DNA from: Methanospirillum hungatei JF-1
GTDB taxonomy: Archaea; Halobacteriota; Methanomicrobia; Methanomicrobiales; Methanospirillaceae
Length of the DNA stretch: 64,000 bases
Assembly: GCF_000013445.1 (NCBI RefSeq)
Contig: NC_007796.1
Coordinates: 1,214,936 to 1,278,935, forward strand
Direction: 5' to 3'
Notes under the pieces: generated by a model
What the model was told of the DNA's origin: nothing
Databases searched by the model: none
The model's input: only the letters and a program-made list of their open reading frames with translations
In this document: positions 21,960 through 30,852 of the stretch, one piece after another
How the letters are laid out: each line of letters opens with the position of its first letter
How positions within the stretch are numbered: the stretch's first letter is position 1
Position numbers and translations under genes: made by a program

Positions 21960-22066
21960 AATTCTTTCATACCTTTTCTGGCATTGGTAAAATCAAACCC
22001 TTACCTTTTATTATGAAATTACTCCAATAGGTACATACAGCAGGTCCTCCCTTCAAGAAATCCTGC

Positions 22067-22116
22067 CGGTGATGAGATCCACCGTAAACCGCCCGCTGCT
22101 AATGACTTCTACCCGG
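22067..22116 (+). ncRNA. Candidate fluoride (crcB-motif) riboswitch, divergent copy
   Basis: GGTGATGAGATCCACC (22068-22083) forms the P1 stem GGTG/CACC with loop ATGAGATC, followed by the conserved AAACCGCC and then CTAATGACTTCTACC. Order and spacing match the crcB motif. The pseudoknot between loop GAGATC and GACTTC has one mismatch and one G-U pair, and P3 is only two base pairs, so the copy is weaker than the one at 23411. It ends eight bases before the ATG at 22124, which would allow control by masking or exposing the start region. Confidence 0.65.
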
Positions 22117-22123
22117 AAGACGT

Positions 22124-22966
22124 ATGTTATCCGAAGGTGAAAAGGAAAAAACGATTCGCTATATCTCTGATCGTCGATGTCAAAGTGGCGGATATTGTTT
22201 TTATCAGCTCGATGAGCCAAATCTGTCTGATACCTGGTATGCCCTGGGCTGCTTAGAGGTTCTGCAAGCGGCTTTTTCAGACAATCTGACACAGGAGTAT
22301 CTATCCCGCTTTGTTAATCAAACCCGGGGATTATCAGGGTTATACCGGCTGTGGTATCTTTTCTGGTCATTCCGGTATCTAAAAAGAACAATTCCAGAAC
22401 AACTTATTGCTCACCTGTTAGCCTGTCCTGTGCCGACGATATTCCACTCCGGAACGATTGAATCTGCATCATTATTTGAGCCACTCTACTGTTATGTTAT
22501 TCTCTGTGAGGAGGCAGGCATACAGCATTCCGAATCAGAAAGGAAAAAAATTCAGGAAGAAGTGTTAAGGTGGCAGCACCCATCCGGAGGGTTTGGTCGT
22601 GATAAGGCAACCCTTATTGAGACAAGGCATGCAGTCGCGATTCTGCAGGGATTCCATATAGAGACGGATGCAGAGAGGATCTATTCATTTCTTACCAGGT
22701 GTATCGACGAACAATCAGGATTCGTAAATGTTCCCTCCTCTCATCCTGGTTATCTTGAACATCTGGATGCCGGAATCGCCCTTGCCAAATTACTAAGCCG
22801 TCCGGTTCCAAACCGTTACCAATGCCTCCTGTATCTCGATAAATGTAGAAATACTAATGGCGGATATGCACGGTCCGGATTTGGAGGGAATTCAACACTT
22901 GAATATACCTGGTATGCAATCCGGAGTCTGTGTGGGTTACATAACAAAACCGGCTGGAACTGGTAA
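22124..22966 (+). CDS. Prenyltransferase/squalene-cyclase-fold (alpha-alpha toroid) protein
   Basis: 280 residues made of repeats of the prenyltransferase/terpene-cyclase type: QSGGYCFY near residue 20, HPSGGFGRD near 152, EQSGFVNV near 203 and NGGYARSGFG near 247, each followed by a helix pair with an aspartate/histidine such as TRHAVAILQG. Such proteins include protein prenyltransferase subunits, squalene cyclases and many uncharacterised proteins. The cyclase DxDD motif is not visible, so it may bind a hydrophobic ligand rather than cyclise. The start lies right after a candidate fluoride riboswitch, which suggests fluoride control. Confidence 0.75.
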   Translation: MLSEGEKEKTIRYISDRRCQSGGYCFYQLDEPNLSDTWYALGCLEVLQAAFSDNLTQEYLSRFVNQTRGLSGLYRLWYLFWSFRYLKRTIPEQLIAHLLACPVPTIFHSGTIESASLFEPLYCYVILCEEAGIQHSESERKKIQEEVLRWQHPSGGFGRDKATLIETRHAVAILQGFHIETDAERIYSFLTRCIDEQSGFVNVPSSHPGYLEHLDAGIALAKLLSRPVPNRYQCLLYLDKCRNTNGGYARSGFGGNSTLEYTWYAIRSLCGLHNKTGWNW

Positions 22967-23011: not shown

Positions 23012-23367
23012 ATGACACCATATTATTGTTCATCATGCTGGCATGAAATCGAAGGAGAAGTATCATTCTGTCCGAATTGTAAAGGTACTAACCTTTGTTC
23101 AGAAGAGAGGTTTGCGGACACTCTCATAACCTGCCTTTCTCACCCGGTCCGGGAGTACCGGCTCATCGCTGTTGAGTCACTCGGAAATATCCGATATGAA
23201 CCGGGCAGCCATATCTTACCTCTATCGTTCAGTCAGAACAGGGTATGGAGATGAGAGAGGCAGCAGTTGAATCAATAAAAAGGATACATATGTACCAGCA
23301 AGGGATTGATCAGGAGAACCAAGATACACACTTCCATAAAAGTCAGATAGTACCTTTCCGTGAATAG
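23012..23367 (+). pseudogene. Zinc-ribbon/HEAT-repeat gene with a frameshift
   Basis: The first frame (23012-23254) encodes a zinc ribbon, CSSCWHEI...CPNC, and then the first helices of a HEAT repeat (REYRLIAVESLGNIRYEP). Near 23201-23206 homology moves to another frame, which goes on QPYLTSIVQSEQGMEMREAAVESIKRI and ends at 23365-23367. Together these make a normal PBS/HEAT pair of about 118 residues. Restoring the frame needs one added base, so either a 1-base deletion, a sequencing error or programmed frameshifting. The second frame's end is followed at once by the promoter of the next gene. Confidence 0.7.
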
Positions 23368-23396: not shown

Positions 23397-23410
23397 CATA
23401 TATGTCATAC

Positions 23411-23460
23411 TGGTGATGGAGTTCACCAAAACCGCCGTTCGGGCTGATAACTCCTACAGG
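23411..23460 (+). ncRNA. Fluoride (crcB-motif) riboswitch
   Basis: The sequence has every element of the crcB-motif aptamer in order. GGTGATGGAGTTCACC forms stem P1 (GGTG/CACC) with loop ATGGAGTT. AAAACCGCC follows, then a short P3 (GCC/GGC around GTTCG) and CTGATAACTCCTAC. The loop GGAGTT pairs perfectly with AACTCC (6 base pairs), the pseudoknot that defines the fluoride pocket. It lies 50 bases before the ATG of the dynamin-like GTPase at 23511. No crcB/fluC gene follows directly; the fluC pair is 5 kb away. Confidence 0.92.
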
Positions 23461-23510
23461 ATGTATATTATTGGCTTCATGGCCATCATTACAGATGTGG
23501 AGTATACTAC

Positions 23511-25277
23511 ATGCACAAAGACGGACACGATACCGGATCCCTGCTAGCACAGGATTATGAACTCCTGCAATCACTTGGTCCTGATTATACATCATACAAG
23601 GAACAAGTATCCGGTCTTATCTCGCGACTGGAAAGCGGACGATTTCATCTTGCTATCCTTGGTCAGTTCAAACGGGGGAAGAGCACATTTTTAAACGCCC
23701 TTCTTGGTGATGCAGTTCTCCCAAGTTCAGTCATCCCACTGACAGCAGTTCCGACTCTGATTACCTATAACCAGGAAAAAAACGTCAGAGTAAAGTATAT
23801 TAACGGGAAAGATGATGGAGTTTTTACATCTGATGACACGACCCTCATCAGGAAATTTGTTGAGGCCTATGTATCTGAAGAGTCAAATCCAAAGAACAAA
23901 CTTCAGGTACTCCAGGTTGAACTGACCTGGCCGGCAGAGATACTGGCAAAAGGGGTCGTTCTTATCGATACCCCCGGTGTAGGTTCAACCCATAAACATA
24001 ACACCGAAATGACGGTAAATTTTCTCTCTCAGTGTGATGCTGCGCTGTTTCTCGTTTCATCAGATCCACCGATCACCGAGATAGAACTGGAATTCCTTCA
24101 CCAGATAACGGATGCCATCCCCAGGATCTTTTTCCTCCTGAATAAGATAGATTATCTGAACGAGGAAGATATCGCCGTTGTCAGTGAATTTATCCGAAAA
24201 ATCCTCATTGAAAAGGGCAGCATCTCCGGGGATGTTCAGATATACCCGGTGTCCGCAAAACAGGGTCTTACTGCTCGTATGGAGAAGGATCCGGTCCTCT
24301 GGGAGAGAAGCGGGCTTTCCGAAGTATCTGATCATCTGGTTTCTTTCCTTGCTGAAGAGAAGACATCAGTTCTCGCAACGGCAATCAGGAAGAAGGCAGC
24401 GGTAGTTATTCGGGATGTGATGATGAGAAAGGCTCTCGAGGTACGATCCTTAGAACTTCCGATGAGTGACCTGCAGCGGCAACTCGAACTCTTCCGGGCA
24501 AAAGTAGAGGAAACACGTCTTCGTCAGGTCAGGACAAAGGACATTCTTGCAGGGGATCAGACACGGATCATTACGTGGCTTGAAGAAGCTGTGGCCAAAC
24601 TCCGGAAAAAAGCAGCGTCATATTTCACGGAAAAAGCAGTCGCAATTCTGGAACAGAACGGGTATAAACCGGATGAGGTCCATGATGTGATTGCTGAAGA
24701 GATTCCGGACTTTTTTGAGCATGAACTTCGGATTATTTCGCATACGACCGAGCAGACCGTAAGTCTTGTGTTAAATGAACACCAGCGTGATGTGGACGAA
24801 TTAATCCGTTCGATCAGAATGGCTGCCTCCAGTTATTTTGATATCCCTCTGCATGAGACCGGAGAGAAGAAAGTCTGGGCCCTTGAACATGAGCCATACT
24901 GGGTTGCTCGAAAGGGATGGCAGACCATGATGGGTATCCTGACTGAAGGAATTACGGGAAAACTGCTTCCCCTTTCAATTCGGAAAGGAAAGATCGTCTC
25001 AGAAGTTTCAGATAATATAATGCAGCTCATCCTGCATAATTCGGAAAATATCCGGTGGGCCACCCTGCAGAATATCAATATGACCTTCCTCCGGTTCCAT
25101 AGTGAATTTGATTCTGATATGAACCGGATTATTGAAGCAACAGAGGGGGCAATAGAGACTGCTATCAGATTCAGAACAGAACATGCTGAAAAGACTGCTG
25201 ATCGTCTTGCTGAATGCAAAATGGTTCTCCAGTATATAGAAGAGCGGGAACAACTGTATCAGAGTGATAATTCATGA
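23511..25277 (+). CDS. Dynamin-like GTPase under a fluoride riboswitch
   Basis: 588 residues. G1 GQFKRGKS is at 51-58, a switch threonine lies within PSSVIPLTAVPTLI (about 71-84), G3 DTPGVG at 153-158 and G4 NKID at 211-214. The rest is long and helical (about 290-588) as in dynamin-family stalks, with a hydrophobic-amphipathic part near residue 460-480 that could meet membrane. Bacterial relatives bind and remodel or repair membranes. The ATG is preceded by GTGGAG, and the leader holds the fluoride riboswitch at 23411-23460. Its stop overlaps the start of a 56-aa zinc protein by four bases. The link to fluoride stress is an inference from the leader. Confidence 0.9.
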   Translation: MHKDGHDTGSLLAQDYELLQSLGPDYTSYKEQVSGLISRLESGRFHLAILGQFKRGKSTFLNALLGDAVLPSSVIPLTAVPTLITYNQEKNVRVKYINGKDDGVFTSDDTTLIRKFVEAYVSEESNPKNKLQVLQVELTWPAEILAKGVVLIDTPGVGSTHKHNTEMTVNFLSQCDAALFLVSSDPPITEIELEFLHQITDAIPRIFFLLNKIDYLNEEDIAVVSEFIRKILIEKGSISGDVQIYPVSAKQGLTARMEKDPVLWERSGLSEVSDHLVSFLAEEKTSVLATAIRKKAAVVIRDVMMRKALEVRSLELPMSDLQRQLELFRAKVEETRLRQVRTKDILAGDQTRIITWLEEAVAKLRKKAASYFTEKAVAILEQNGYKPDEVHDVIAEEIPDFFEHELRIISHTTEQTVSLVLNEHQRDVDELIRSIRMAASSYFDIPLHETGEKKVWALEHEPYWVARKGWQTMMGILTEGITGKLLPLSIRKGKIVSEVSDNIMQLILHNSENIRWATLQNINMTFLRFHSEFDSDMNRIIEATEGAIETAIRFRTEHAEKTADRLAECKMVLQYIEEREQLYQSDNS

Positions 25278-25444
25278 CAAAATGTCCGTGTTGCGGATCT
25301 GATTTATTTGGGTACGAAAAGCCCTATGACCGGTTAAACCGGGGAAAGGTTATCGGAGTTGCCTGTTGTCCGTGGTGTAAATGGACCGGGACTGGTGAAC
25401 AGTACCGCGATCTGGATGATGATGACGTGAAAATTCCATATTGA
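25274..25444 (+). CDS. 56-aa zinc-ribbon protein coupled to the dynamin-like GTPase
   Basis: 56 residues, beginning MTKCPCCGSDLFGYEKPYD and continuing to VACCPWCKWTGTG, so two Cys pairs (CPCC and CCPWC) about 25 residues apart form a zinc ribbon; the tail is acidic (DLDDDD). The ATG overlaps the GTPase stop (ATGA), which supports translation coupled to it. It resembles small zinc-ribbon proteins that act as adapters, but I do not recognise a family. Presumably under the same fluoride riboswitch. Confidence 0.75.
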   Translation: MTKCPCCGSDLFGYEKPYDRLNRGKVIGVACCPWCKWTGTGEQYRDLDDDDVKIPY

Positions 25445-25822: not shown

Positions 25823-27835
25823 TTACCGGTTATTTTTTAGTATTCTTGTTATTCCCGCCCGATATTGACCGGCAGTATTTTCATATGACTTTTCAATCAA
25901 CCCTAATGTCTGTTCAGTCCACCGGACCAAAATTCGTTTATATACCTCAAAACTTTTCTTCAGTTCTTTTTTCATGAGTTCTTTTAATTTTGATCTGATG
26001 GTATTTTCTAGAAACGCCCGGCCCAGGAATGTAGAATAGACCGGAAGTGAGAACGAGATATTGAGAGAACCGGGATCATATCGTGGCATATCATGAATCT
26101 TTGACCGGAGATCTTCACTATCCCTGATACCAGGTATGGAAAGGATGGCAGCACTCTTTTCCAGGATGAGATCCAGCTGTGATGCAAGTTCTATAAGTTT
26201 GTCCTGCACCGGAGTGTTCTCTTGGTGAACATATCCCACGATATCATCTCTGATAAGAGAATGCACCTCCCCCTGTGCATCAGTACCATTCATGGATTGA
26301 ATTACATGCTCTGTCATCATCTCCCATAATGGAGAAAGATCAGAGAAGAGATTCCTGCTTTGATGGAGGGCATAATTTCGGGTCTCTTCTATATGAGCAG
26401 ACCCATTTCGGAGTGCTGTTTCAATAGACAAGAGTTCCTGTTCATGTTCGGGAGTTAATAATTCAGGATCTTTCTCCTCCTCTGACAGTGCATGTTGAAC
26501 CGCCTCCCATAACAGACCGATCTTTCGCTGGAGAGACCGGGTTTTCATATCCCGTGCATCTTTCACGAGCGGGAGAATTGCTAATTCAAACCAGGTATCC
26601 AGGAGATGGCGGTGAGATTTCCGGGTACTGACCAGATGAACCGGATAATGAACATCACATCGCACCGTTATCTGTGAGGAGATATATTCGCACAGAGAAA
26701 GACTCTCTTCATCAGAGAGAAGATCTCCTTTACTTACCAGAATCTGAACGGGAATTCCTGCACTCTGAAGTGAATACACCGTCTGAATATCCTCTGCAGT
26801 CAACGTTGATCCGGCATCGATGAGCACAATACCAAGATCACAGCTGGGAAGGTATGCACGGGTAAGTGCAGCTCCGCTTGTAGCAAGAGACCCAAGACCG
26901 GGGGTGTCTGCAAATCCTACCCCTTCCAGAAGTCTGTGAGCAGGAAGCCGCGCAATTATCCGGGTAACATGCCGTGAATTAGAAGGGTTGTGCTGCTCGG
27001 TTGCATATAAAAAGAGATCTTCAGGAGGGCAGACAATAGGATTTTTATCAACAAATGTGACCAGAATTTCCCGTTTGTCGCTCCAGCGGATATGAATAGG
27101 GAGAGCAGTGACCGGAGTTACTCCGACAGGAAGAAGATCTTCTCCAAGAATCGCATTTAATAGGGATGATTTTCCTGAACTGACTCTGCCAAATACGGCA
27201 ATCTCAAATACCTGATCATCGGCACTGTCAAGAATAGAGGATATCTGACCACGGAATTCCACAAGCCCATAATCTGATACCCGCTGCTCAATGGTGCGAA
27301 GAAGATCCAGATCATGGGATGTACTCTCCAGTTTTGAGAGTCGCTCTTTAATATTCTGTCCACCGGTCCCGGAGAGGAACTGTTCAACCTGACGAATAAG
27401 AACCCGAAGCTCACTTACCGCCCCTGACAAACAGGTCTCGCCCTCAGTGGTCATCATTCCATACCCCCGCATCGCAGAGGGACGCATTTCATCGACTGAT
27501 ATCTGCATCGATGCCAGCCTGACACGAACGGCCCTGGATGCCGGAATATCCGGAGAGGTCTTTGGGATACCTGCACTATCAAGAACCCGGGAAAGCCTGT
27601 TTCTCATATGGGAGATATAGTCTTCAATGCAGGTCTTCTGGGCAGGAGTTATATCAGGCACATACTGTGGAAATGAAGTGTTTGATGAACCTTCATCCAT
27701 TATCCGTTCAATCTCATCAAGGAGATGATCCAGGTGCTGACATCCGATTCGTATCCTGTTTGCATGACTTGGAGAGAAAATCCCATTTTTTTCAGGTTCC
27801 GGTCTCTTTTCAGACATATCCATCACCCTGGACAA
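25823..27835 (-). CDS. Second dynamin-like GTPase
   Basis: 670 residues with an N-terminal helical part of about 205 residues before the GTPase. G1 GRVSSGKSS is at 216-224, a switch region VGVTPVTALPIHIRW at about 237-251, G3 DTPGLG at 310-315 and G4 SKGD at 368-371 (in place of NKxD). The C-terminal 300 residues are helical with an amphipathic segment around 610-625 and a basic end. It differs clearly from the GTPase at 23511 in length, N-terminal region and G4, so it is not a recent duplicate. Convergent to that gene, downstream of the winged-helix gene. Pairs of different dynamin-like proteins often work together. Confidence 0.88.
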   Translation of the reverse strand: MSRVMDMSEKRPEPEKNGIFSPSHANRIRIGCQHLDHLLDEIERIMDEGSSNTSFPQYVPDITPAQKTCIEDYISHMRNRLSRVLDSAGIPKTSPDIPASRAVRVRLASMQISVDEMRPSAMRGYGMMTTEGETCLSGAVSELRVLIRQVEQFLSGTGGQNIKERLSKLESTSHDLDLLRTIEQRVSDYGLVEFRGQISSILDSADDQVFEIAVFGRVSSGKSSLLNAILGEDLLPVGVTPVTALPIHIRWSDKREILVTFVDKNPIVCPPEDLFLYATEQHNPSNSRHVTRIIARLPAHRLLEGVGFADTPGLGSLATSGAALTRAYLPSCDLGIVLIDAGSTLTAEDIQTVYSLQSAGIPVQILVSKGDLLSDEESLSLCEYISSQITVRCDVHYPVHLVSTRKSHRHLLDTWFELAILPLVKDARDMKTRSLQRKIGLLWEAVQHALSEEEKDPELLTPEHEQELLSIETALRNGSAHIEETRNYALHQSRNLFSDLSPLWEMMTEHVIQSMNGTDAQGEVHSLIRDDIVGYVHQENTPVQDKLIELASQLDLILEKSAAILSIPGIRDSEDLRSKIHDMPRYDPGSLNISFSLPVYSTFLGRAFLENTIRSKLKELMKKELKKSFEVYKRILVRWTEQTLGLIEKSYENTAGQYRAGITRILKNNR

Positions 27836-27911: not shown

Positions 27912-28469
27912 TCAATTCCTGGATGAAAGTGTATTTTTGAGCATAAGACGGATCTCCTTTAACGGATTACAAAATCCCTCAGCAAGCCTGCCTCCTTTCA
28001 TATCACGGGCGAGTGCATCAGCATAAAGCTGGTGAATGAGGATAAGAAGTCTCCAGTCATCTTGCATATCAGGGATAAAAGAGAAAGGATACAGGCTTAA
28101 TCTGAACCGCTCCAGCAGATCAGCTGGAGTTCTGGATTGAATTAAGTTATCAAAAAATGACGGTGATTTCTGCCCCATATCAATGATAACGTCATACAGC
28201 GGGGATGGAACTGACCGGTATGAGGAGGTAAGATCCTCAATAAACCACTTCATGGACCGGATCTCCTCATGGATAATCCTATAGTGCCGGTTATGATACA
28301 GATGTAACATCCGATCAACATTCCGATTCATCTCATATGCAGGATCAGACATATGGCCGGGTATTGGCATAATATATCCTGAACGTGACAGGTAGTCAAG
28401 ATGTGCCTGAATATTTTTCGGACTTTTAAATCCTATTTCGGATGCAATATCACTTTTGTACCCAAAGAA
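27912..28469 (-). pseudogene. Winged-helix protein lacking a start codon
   Basis: A minus frame opens right after a stop at 28470-28472 and runs to 27912 (185 residues). Its first 45 residues, [28 protein letters not shown] then a wing, are a clear winged-helix DNA-binding domain, but no ATG, GTG or TTG lies upstream of the domain; the first ATG (28370) is inside the wing, which is where a standard annotation (152 residues) would start. The rest is helical with no motif. The missing start and the overlap with the 5' end of fluC (28401) suggest the gene lost its beginning. Could still be translated from 28370 as a helical protein without DNA binding. Confidence 0.6.
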
Positions 28470-28823
28470 TCAGCACTCGTTGGTATTGGCGGATGTATCG
28501 GATCTGTTGCCCGGTATCAGATCAATGAATGGATTCCGTCTCTTTTAGGGACATTTATTGTCAATGTTCTGGGGTGCATTGCTATCGGGTTTCTGATGTA
28601 CGAATCCATCTACTTTGGAGCGTTCAGCCGGAACTCTCGTCTCTTCCTTGGTGCAGGATTGATCGGATCATTTACGACCTTTTCAGCCTTTGCAACCCAG
28701 ACAATAGAAGCAGGACTTTTTTATGGAATAATCTTTATCGCTGCAAACATACTGTGCGGACTTATGGGAGTATTCATTGGACGCCAGATCATACTTCGGG
28801 GTAGGAGATCATGGAACATCTGA
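28401..28823 (+). CDS. fluC1: Fluoride channel FluC/CrcB, first copy
   Basis: 140 residues with four hydrophobic segments. Family signatures are present: [15 protein letters not shown] (about 28-42), [10 protein letters not shown] and SFTTFSAF (about 93-100), the TTFS-type motif that lines the fluoride pore. FluC lets toxic fluoride leave the cell. Family homology begins near residue 25; the 24 residues before it are antisense to the winged-helix gene and no closer start exists, so the native 5' end seems lost. Overlaps the second copy by 13 bases; the two probably form a heterodimer. Confidence 0.9.
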
Positions 28824-29173
28824 TCCTTGTCGGGATTGGAGGAGCGGTCGGGGCCATGCTTCGCTTTGAGCTCTCAAAACTCCGTCCAGTCAGGAGCATT
28901 CCTCTGGGAACGGCCCTGGTTAATATTATCGGCAGTTCTCTCTTTGGATGCGTCGTTTTTTCCAGGTCTCCCGGAGATATCTTTTACCTGGTGGATGTCG
29001 GAATTCTGGGAGGGTTTACCACCTTTTCAACCTTCTCCTTTGAGACGTTCAGGATGTTTGAGGAACAGGATTATCAGACTATGGTTCTGAATATCTCAAT
29101 AAATCTTATAGGAAGCCTGATTGGAGTACTTTTAAGTTTCATTCTTGTGACGCTGATTTTAACAGGAGGATAA
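28811..29173 (+). CDS. fluC2: Fluoride channel FluC/CrcB, second copy
   Basis: 120 residues and a full-length family member: [15 protein letters not shown] at about 8-22, [14 protein letters not shown] and [12 protein letters not shown] (about 76-87), with four membrane segments. Paired fluC genes are common where the dual-topology dimer has split into two proteins of opposite orientation. It overlaps the first copy and abuts the DUF190 gene with no gap. No riboswitch precedes this operon. Confidence 0.93.
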
Positions 29174-29497
29174 ATGTTATCGGATGGCATGTTATTACGA
29201 ATATATATCGCGGAATCAGCAAAAATCGGAAAAAAGCCGGCGTATCGACATCTTGTTGAGATGTTCCAGAAGAGAGGATTTCCCGGGTGTACGGTATTCC
29301 GGGGTATGGTTGGATATGGACATGAACAGGTTATTCACACCGTTGATGTCCTGAACTTCTCAATGGACCTTCCGGTGGTCATCGATGTCGTTGATACAAA
29401 GGAACGGGTTATGAGCATAGTTGATGAAGTGGAAGAACTGGTCGAACACGGGCTTGTCATCACCCATGATGTGAAGATGGGAAGAAAACAGAAGTAA
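29174..29497 (+). CDS. DUF190 protein of the fluoride operon
   Basis: 107 residues, start directly after the fluC2 stop. The pattern LLRIYIAESAKIGKKPAYRHLVEMFQKRG...TVFRGMVGYG is the DUF190 core, a small PII-like alpha-beta fold. DUF190 genes regularly lie with fluC/crcB genes, so a role in fluoride handling, perhaps sensing a nucleotide or regulating the channel, is usual but unproven. It ends 75 bases from the convergent enolase gene. Confidence 0.9.
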   Translation: MLSDGMLLRIYIAESAKIGKKPAYRHLVEMFQKRGFPGCTVFRGMVGYGHEQVIHTVDVLNFSMDLPVVIDVVDTKERVMSIVDEVEELVEHGLVITHDVKMGRKQK

Positions 29498-29571
29498 ATC
29501 CTGGTAAACAGGAAGAGGAGTCATCAGCTGGAAAAAGCGGTTACAGGTGAACCCCATCACCCTGGTTTACA

Positions 29572-30852
29572 TTATGCAGAATTGAATGCTTGTCTTCCTG
29601 CGTATCTGGCCTTATCTCCAAGGAACTCGTTAATACGGAGGAGCTGATTATACTTCTCAACCCGCTCTCCACGACAGGGCGCACCGGTCTTGAGCTGACC
29701 ACATCCAAGTGCAACCGTCAGATCTGCAATGAATGAATCACAGGTCTCACCACTCCGGTGAGAGACCATCGTTCCCCAGCCGGCTTTTTGAGCAAGACGA
29801 ATGGCATCTATGGTTTCGGTTACCGTACCGATCTGGTTGAGCTTTATAAGAACCGCATTTGCAGTCTTTTCTTTCAGACCGCGGTGTATTCGTTCAGGAT
29901 TGGTAACAAAGATGTCATCTCCGACGATCTGGATGGTATTTCCAAGACGTTTTGTCATGAATGCAAACCCTTCCCAGTCATCCTCGGCAAGTCCGTCTTC
30001 AATAGAGATGATCGGGTAGGTCCGGATCATGTCTTCATAATAATCAGTCATTTCTTCTGATGTGAGGACCTTTTTCTCAGTCTTCAGCGTGTATTTTCCA
30101 TCCTTATAAAATCCGCTTGATGCTGGATCAAGGACCAGAGCGATATCTTTTCCTGGTATATAACCGGCCTCTTCTATTGCGTGGACGATGAGCGACGCAG
30201 GTTCAAGATTTGACGGCACAATCGGAGCAAATCCTCCTTCATCACCGACACCGGTTGAAAGTCCTTTCTTTTTCAGAACTGATTTCAGGGAGTGATAGAC
30301 TTCGCATCCCCACCGAACCGCTTCGGGATAGTCAGGAGCTCCGACCGGGGCTATCATGTACTCCTGAAAGTCTGATCCCTGCCAGTTGGCATGAGCGCCC
30401 CCGTTCATAATATTCATACAGGGAACGGGCATGAGAGTAGATTTGGGCCCGAGATACTCTGAGAGCAGAACGTCTTCGGAGTTTGCAGCAGCCCGTGCAA
30501 CTGCCATTGAGACCGTAAGAATGGCATTTGCTCCAAGTTTTGCCTTGTTCGGGGTCCCGTCAAGCTCAATCATCACCGAGTCGATACTTTTCTGCTCAAG
30601 AGCATCCCTTCCCAGAAGTTTGGGTGAGATGATGTCCATAACGGCCTGAACGGCACCCTGAACTCCCTTGCCTCCAAACCGTTTTTCACCATCTCGACGT
30701 TCAACCGCTTCATGGATCCCGGTTGATGCTCCGGAGGGACATGCCGCCCGGCCTCGTATCCCGTTATTCAGGGTGATATCGACCTCTACTGTAGGATTTC
30801 CTCGTGAATCAAGAATTTCACGGGCTATTATTCTCTTAATTCTGGTGTCCAT
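29572..30852 (-). CDS. eno: Enolase
   Basis: 426 residues, the usual length. Catalytic parts are visible: [10 protein letters not shown] loop near residue 40, [11 protein letters not shown] near 287, GDDIFVTN near 313, the lysine in LIKLNQIGT near 337 and SHRSGET near 366. It makes phosphoenolpyruvate from 2-phosphoglycerate in central metabolism. Enolase is strongly inhibited by fluoride with phosphate, and eno genes recur in fluoride-riboswitch regulons. Here it lies next to the fluC operon, but I found no riboswitch in its leader (30853-31000). Homologous throughout, no oddity. Confidence 0.97.

Follow-up and report, generated by a model that had tools for sequence, protein, structure and literature searches.

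The window analysed here, a stretch of 64,000 nucleotides from Methanospirillum hungatei JF-1 (contig NC_007796.1, positions 1,214,936 to 1,278,935), carries three fluoride riboswitches (RS1 to RS3), all of them inside 7.5 kb and with no others in the 3.54-Mb genome. This fluoride island also contains two CrcB genes, a DUF190 gene, enolase, a prenyltransferase-like toroid protein and two dynamin-like GTPases, dyn1 and dyn2. Its features are listed below, with positions counted from the first nucleotide of the window.

22059–22118, plus strand: fluoride riboswitch RS2 (45.5 bits), 5 nt ahead of the toroid gene
22124–22966, plus strand: prenyltransferase-toroid protein, 280 aa (Pfam Prenyltrans, 1.1e-13)
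23403–23463, plus strand: fluoride riboswitch aptamer RS1 (RF01734; 58.2 bits, E 7e-15), with pseudoknot GGAGTT/AACTCC and covariation
23464–23510, plus strand: leader with the expression platform, seen in the sequence; GGAGT at 23500–23504 can pair with ACTCC of the aptamer, a functional role being inferred
23511–25277, plus strand: dyn1, dynamin-like GTPase, 588 aa (Pfam Dynamin_N, 6.8e-30, 104.7 bits)
25274–25444, plus strand: four-cysteine (zinc-ribbon-like) protein, 56 aa, an open reading frame overlapping the dyn1 stop (ATGA)
25823–27835, minus strand: dyn2, second dynamin-like GTPase, 670 aa (Dynamin_N, 2.8e-21)
28401–28823 and 28811–29173, plus strand: two CrcB/FluC channel genes (Pfam CRCB, 5.4e-20 and 3.1e-24)
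29174–29497, plus strand: DUF190 gene (Pfam, 1e-33)
29508–29570, minus strand: fluoride riboswitch RS3 (47.7 bits), 1 nt behind the enolase stop
29572–30852, minus strand: enolase (open reading frame)

A preliminary description of this DNA had placed a dynamin-like GTPase gene and then a 56-aa reading frame behind the RS1 aptamer, and both frames are as it stated. Its contrast with fluoride channels holds only for the gene right after RS1, but crcB lies in the same island: the two crcB genes, DUF190 and enolase follow 3–7 kb downstream of RS1 and dyn1, and these, together with RS2 and RS3, had been missed.

RS1 stands in the 5' leader of dyn1, on the same strand and 47 nt ahead of the gene. 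It matches the Rfam model RF01734 over its full length, far above the gathering score of 34, with a P1 helix GGTG/CACC and a pseudoknot whose six pairs are exact in the window. We aligned 50 fluoride aptamers from this genome and its relatives, and found that 98.6% of the cells are paired in the stated structure versus 37–55% when the partners are slid by 1–3 columns; changes on both sides occur at five pairs, and the covariation score of the structure was reached by none of 500 shuffles. With a score above the threshold, covariation in P1 and pseudoknot, and a leader position, RS1 qualifies as a member of RF01734. The complete set of crcB-motif elements and the perfect pseudoknot that the preliminary description had claimed are thus borne out, including by the covariance search that it had left to be done. 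The match score, the fluoride island and conservation rule out that RS1 is an orphan or chance switch. Low-scoring Rfam matches to PART1_3 and snoZ7 near the locus were judged to be chance.

Several further observations concern the remainder of the island. The model of the toroid protein (pLDDT 90.5) has geranylgeranyl transferase beta subunits as its nearest solved folds, and its gene adds to the fluoride regulon a second member that is not a channel: in several genera a riboswitch stands just ahead of its start, or it shares an operon with dyn1. The zinc-ribbon/HEAT gene that separates the toroid gene from RS1 (23012–23367) shows a one-base deletion near 23205 when compared with the intact 119-aa gene of the closest relative (locus L034), either a frameshift or a sequencing error. 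The dyn2 gene lies behind its own riboswitch in one related locus (L050) and 279 nt behind one in another (L038). RS3 is antisense, directed into the crcB-crcB-DUF190 operon, and that operon is not itself preceded by a switch; the placement is the same in L035, with 95% sequence identity. Since the switch precedes enolase or crcB in other genera, an old rearrangement is likely, and any present action of RS3, be it on the more distant dyn2 or as an antisense RNA, is hypothetical.

The dyn1 protein carries the GTPase motifs G1 (GQFKRGKS), G3 (DTPG) and G4 (NKxD), and GQxKRGKS, T78, DTPG and NKxD are invariant across 47 homologues, as expected of a dynamin-type G1–G4 domain. Its AlphaFold2 model (pLDDT 83.6) consists of a GTPase domain with long helices for neck and trunk, and the loop at the tip is loose; helices 284–443 and 488–587 form the neck and trunk bundles of a DLP, and a Foldseek search returned BDLP (8.6e-23) and IniA (1.6e-22) as the nearest solved folds. 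The tip loop (445–487), modelled with low confidence, is aromatic (PYWV..KW) and leads into the basic start of a helix, and hydropathy analysis of dyn1 found no strongly hydrophobic stretch (best 19-residue value 1.4). As far as such a model can tell, the tip is closer in character to the IniA lipid loop than to a transmembrane paddle. The small four-cysteine protein has no Pfam or NCBIfam match and is retained in the nearest Methanospirillum relative.

Among this genome and 60 relatives, 22 of 61 have a fluoride switch. In the neighbourhoods extracted, a switch immediately precedes dyn1 in the window and its orthologues at 14 more loci from 13 other genomes; at one of these loci, L061, the aptamer scores only 26.5 bits. 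Searching 100 Methanomicrobiales genomes with Dynamin_N, we obtained clear dynamins (at least 76 bits) from 18, and position or similarity identifies every one of these proteins as dyn1 or dyn2. A switch was present in 17 of the 18 clear dynamin loci read, and the contig of the remaining one starts too near the gene, so that all 17 testable loci have it. Dynamin and switch also occur together at the level of genomes: of the 37 covered by both searches, 11 have both, four the switch only, none the dynamin only and 22 neither (Fisher p 1.6e-6, a guide only, given the kinship between the genomes).

The pseudoknot sequence goes with the class of gene that follows, because the aptamers ahead of dyn1 have GGAGTT/AACTCC while those ahead of the toroid gene, crcB, dyn2 and enolase mostly have GAAGTC/GACTTC or GACGTC/GACGTC (seen in the alignment; L050, L051, L052). 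One archaeal locus (L046, genome G033) packs seven fluoride riboswitches into about 13 kb, ahead of dyn1, an ABC exporter, an MFS carrier, glutamine synthetase, the toroid gene and others. At another (L058, G010), a decayed dyn1 with several stops follows a weak, decaying riboswitch of 27.6 bits, and gene and switch seem to have been lost together.

The pairing extends well beyond these archaea. A homologue search with one genome per species gave 233 relatives, of which the best 80 by similarity were analysed; the nearest among them, from a Methanospirillum hungatei MAG, is 93% identical. Using a model built from archaeal aptamers, we found a switch directly upstream, on the same strand and 26–341 nt from the estimated start, for 61 of the 77 homologues with upstream DNA; 11 more have a switch elsewhere in the locus and five have none. 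Within these best 80 relatives, the carriers comprise archaea and 14 bacterial phyla, as named in the submitters' titles (Thermodesulfobacteriota, Planctomycetota, Bacillota, Myxococcota, Latescibacterota, Spirochaetota, Acidobacteriota, Omnitrophota, Chloroflexota, Synergistota, Calditrichota, Bipolaricaulota, Atribacterota and Pseudomonadota). Since the archaeal dyn1 proteins form one clade (support 96), the pairing is found on either side of the family's split between archaea and bacteria, and it is either old or the result of gene and switch having moved together.

We also inspected 18 bacterial genomes, chosen mostly for having the switch. The sole fluoride riboswitch is the one ahead of dyn1 in seven of these assemblies, and dyn1 is the only dynamin (at 1e-10) in 14 of the 18. 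The one fair count in this sample concerns the other dynamin loci, none of which (0 of 6) has a switch within 1.5 kb. That dynamins in general are linked to fluoride switches is ruled out by these switchless loci, which share their genomes with dyn1, and a switch is also missing from most dynamin-bearing control genomes. In four genomes (G370, G374, G378 and G381) dyn1 lies behind the only riboswitch, and neither CrcB nor CLC was found in these mostly draft and possibly incomplete assemblies.

Recurrent neighbours of dyn1 belong to the gene families of enolase, the toroid protein, CrcB, DUF190, a MutS domain V pair, a Na/H exchanger and an MFS carrier; enolase is found beside it in many loci, and exporters or Na/H exchangers are likewise present in many. 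Fluoride riboswitches are already known to precede genes for enolase, mutS, Na/H antiporters and exporters (PMC11139923; PMC2864571). In five loci (L067–L071) dyn1, the toroid gene and enolase are consecutive, the ends of dyn1 and the toroid gene overlap, and dyn1 leads the operon. Altogether, we regard it as highly probable that the switch belongs to dyn1, as the preliminary description had supposed from a single locus, given 61 of 77 homologues in two domains and every testable locus in Methanomicrobiales.

How the aptamer would act on the gene is less firmly established. Folding of the window leader with ViennaRNA gives the Shine-Dalgarno sequence an unpaired probability of 0.02 when free and of 0.46 when the pseudoknot strands are blocked, and its duplex with ACTCC has an energy of -7.6 kcal/mol versus -2.5 in shuffles (p 0.016). 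About 7 of 13 archaeal leaders show masking when folded in full; L034 does not. The duplex energy is below the shuffle mean in 14 of 14 leaders, with p < 0.05 in half, a partly trivial result given that CTCC matches any GGAG Shine-Dalgarno sequence. With folding that fits about half of the leaders and a duplex test that is partly trivial, we do not accept these data as proof. Bacterial leaders show terminator-like hairpins in 25 of 41 cases versus 2.1 expected from shuffles, and in several (e.g. L122, L123, L087 and L102) the 5' arm of the terminator is the pseudoknot strand, the classical anti-terminator layout. No such hairpin was found in 20 archaeal leaders, and on this sample we rejected intrinsic terminators as the archaeal switching route. 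A translational fluoride riboswitch used in archaea is already on record (cited in PMC11077080). Control of translation by Shine-Dalgarno masking in archaea is likely, yet unproven.

We thus propose that RS1 is a fluoride ON switch for a fluoride-dedicated, membrane-remodelling dynamin-like GTPase, an explanation to which, as a whole and without any experiment, we assign a probability of roughly 0.65. Binding of Mg-fluoride would stabilize the pseudoknot GGAGUU:AACUCC, a step supported by sequence, covariation and conservation. By inference, the AACUCC strand would then be withdrawn from an alternative partner, here the Shine-Dalgarno sequence GGAGU before the start codon and, in many of the bacterial homologues, an intrinsic terminator through its 3' arm, with the presumed outcome that dyn1 and the overlapping 56-aa protein are translated. 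Judging from its family and predicted fold, dyn1 may attach to the cell membrane via the aromatic and basic tip loop and, under GTP hydrolysis, remodel the membrane and keep it tight and intact, while CrcB would export fluoride and enolase be replenished. That dyn1 preserves membrane integrity under fluoride is probable by analogy, an inference, and B. subtilis DynA is described as a membrane surveillance protein (PMC8844932). The membrane remodelling put forward in the preliminary description is supported by family and modelled fold only, which are also the ground for inferring GTP hydrolysis and membrane binding, and we rate a membrane-protective role of dyn1 as an even bet or slightly better; the more specific idea of membrane repair, which that description also raised, stays conjectural. 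Our analysis offers no evidence of membrane damage caused by fluoride in these organisms.

The switch could control dyn1 for another reason, namely that the GTPase is a fluoride-inhibited target overproduced in compensation. Metal fluorides mimic the gamma-phosphate and trap GTPases, which counts for this possibility. Enolase and pyrophosphatase under fluoride riboswitches are explained in just this way (PMC11139923). However, there is no housekeeping dynamin to replace: dyn1 and dyn2 are the only clear dynamins in 14 of the 18 bacterial genomes and in Methanomicrobiales, and related genomes without fluoride riboswitches are also without dyn1 and dyn2. We consider compensation unlikely. Marginally less likely still is disposal rather than repair, with dyn1 helping to shed membrane vesicles or to enclose poorly soluble fluoride-metal deposits. 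LeoA-type DLPs have been tied to vesicle release (PMC4159319), and such a role would suit the four genomes whose single fluoride riboswitch precedes dyn1 and in which neither CrcB nor CLC was found. Yet the draft state of most of these assemblies, the exporters or Na/H exchangers in many dyn1 loci and the absence of any direct sign of vesicles weigh against it.

It could also be doubted that RS1 regulates dyn1 at all. Only some 35 nt separate RS1 from the reading frame upstream, and read-through is therefore likely, so that dyn1 might be read from the transcript of the upstream toroid gene. As the switch still precedes dyn1 where the gene order differs, and dyn1 itself leads the operon in L067–L071, we find it very improbable that RS1 is a mere bystander. 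The least credible account is that dyn1 is an anti-phage dynamin of the LeoABC or DynA kind that lies in the island by chance: the PADLOC matches to LeoA (1.3e-20) and LeoBC on which it rests are weak, dyn1 reaches only 32.2 bits against the NCBIfam model LeoA/HP0731 (NF041922, cut-off 325) and 87.1 against DynA (NF052648, cut-off 1600), being a single unit versus two fused DLP units, and fluoride genes adjoin dyn1 in dozens of genomes.

Current explanations of fluoride toxicity centre on inhibited enzymes, and those of fluoride defence on export. A fluoride switch ahead of the gene for a dynamin-like, membrane-shaping protein suggests that fluoride poisoning is met by membrane remodelling in addition to export, and the consistent tie between switch and DLP over such evolutionary distance points to the membrane as target or tool in fluoride stress. 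The chances are about even that, in archaea and across many bacterial phyla, a distinct and ancient DLP subfamily works in the response to fluoride, with remodelling as a general third limb of defence besides export and the replacement of inhibited enzymes; it is possibly the main limb in some lineages, because dyn1 follows the only fluoride riboswitch in genomes where CrcB and CLC were not found. The result also hints at what a family with no annotation beyond dynamin-like may do, and it makes fluoride a clean chemical inducer for prokaryotic dynamins, whose cellular role becomes directly testable. Switch and fold are of known kinds, whereas the fluoride-dedicated dynamin subfamily appears to be new. 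A search for fluoride, riboswitch and dynamin together found nothing in the open-access literature covered, and dynamin is named neither in the original crcB paper (PMC2864571) nor in a recent review (PMC11139923). The preliminary description's statement that no earlier account exists holds within that literature; an entry in the supplement of Baker et al. 2012 is not excluded.

Compared with known fluoride riboswitches of the crcB motif, RS1 has all conserved aptamer elements and scores above the curated cut-off, and, as in the B. cereus crcB switch, the pseudoknot strand is the switching strand. It differs in controlling a dynamin-like GTPase, and the archaeal dyn1 leaders differ in lacking a terminator, with possible Shine-Dalgarno masking instead. 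Among dynamins, BDLP of Nostoc punctiforme (2j68/2j69) gives the best sequence profile match (3.5e-38) and the best Foldseek E-value, yet shares only 17% identity with dyn1 and likely has a transmembrane paddle, whereas dyn1 has no strongly hydrophobic segment. The paired bacterial DLPs such as Cj-DLP1/2 (5owv) resemble the island in having two different DLP genes; dyn1 and dyn2, however, lie on opposite strands, and pairing of their proteins is only hypothetical. Mycobacterial IniA (6j72) is induced by cell-wall drugs, binds acidic lipids via a loop at the trunk tip and cuts membranes with GTP (PMC6715688). It belongs to another lineage, is regulated differently and, with about 16% identity to dyn1 in the structural alignment, is no close sequence relative; the resemblance is one of way of working, and membrane fission has been demonstrated for IniA alone. 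IniA shows the best overall fold overlap with dyn1 (TM 0.54–0.56), the tip of dyn1 is modelled, at low confidence, as a loop like that of IniA instead of a transmembrane paddle, and IniA is induced by a toxic agent, as we propose for dyn1.
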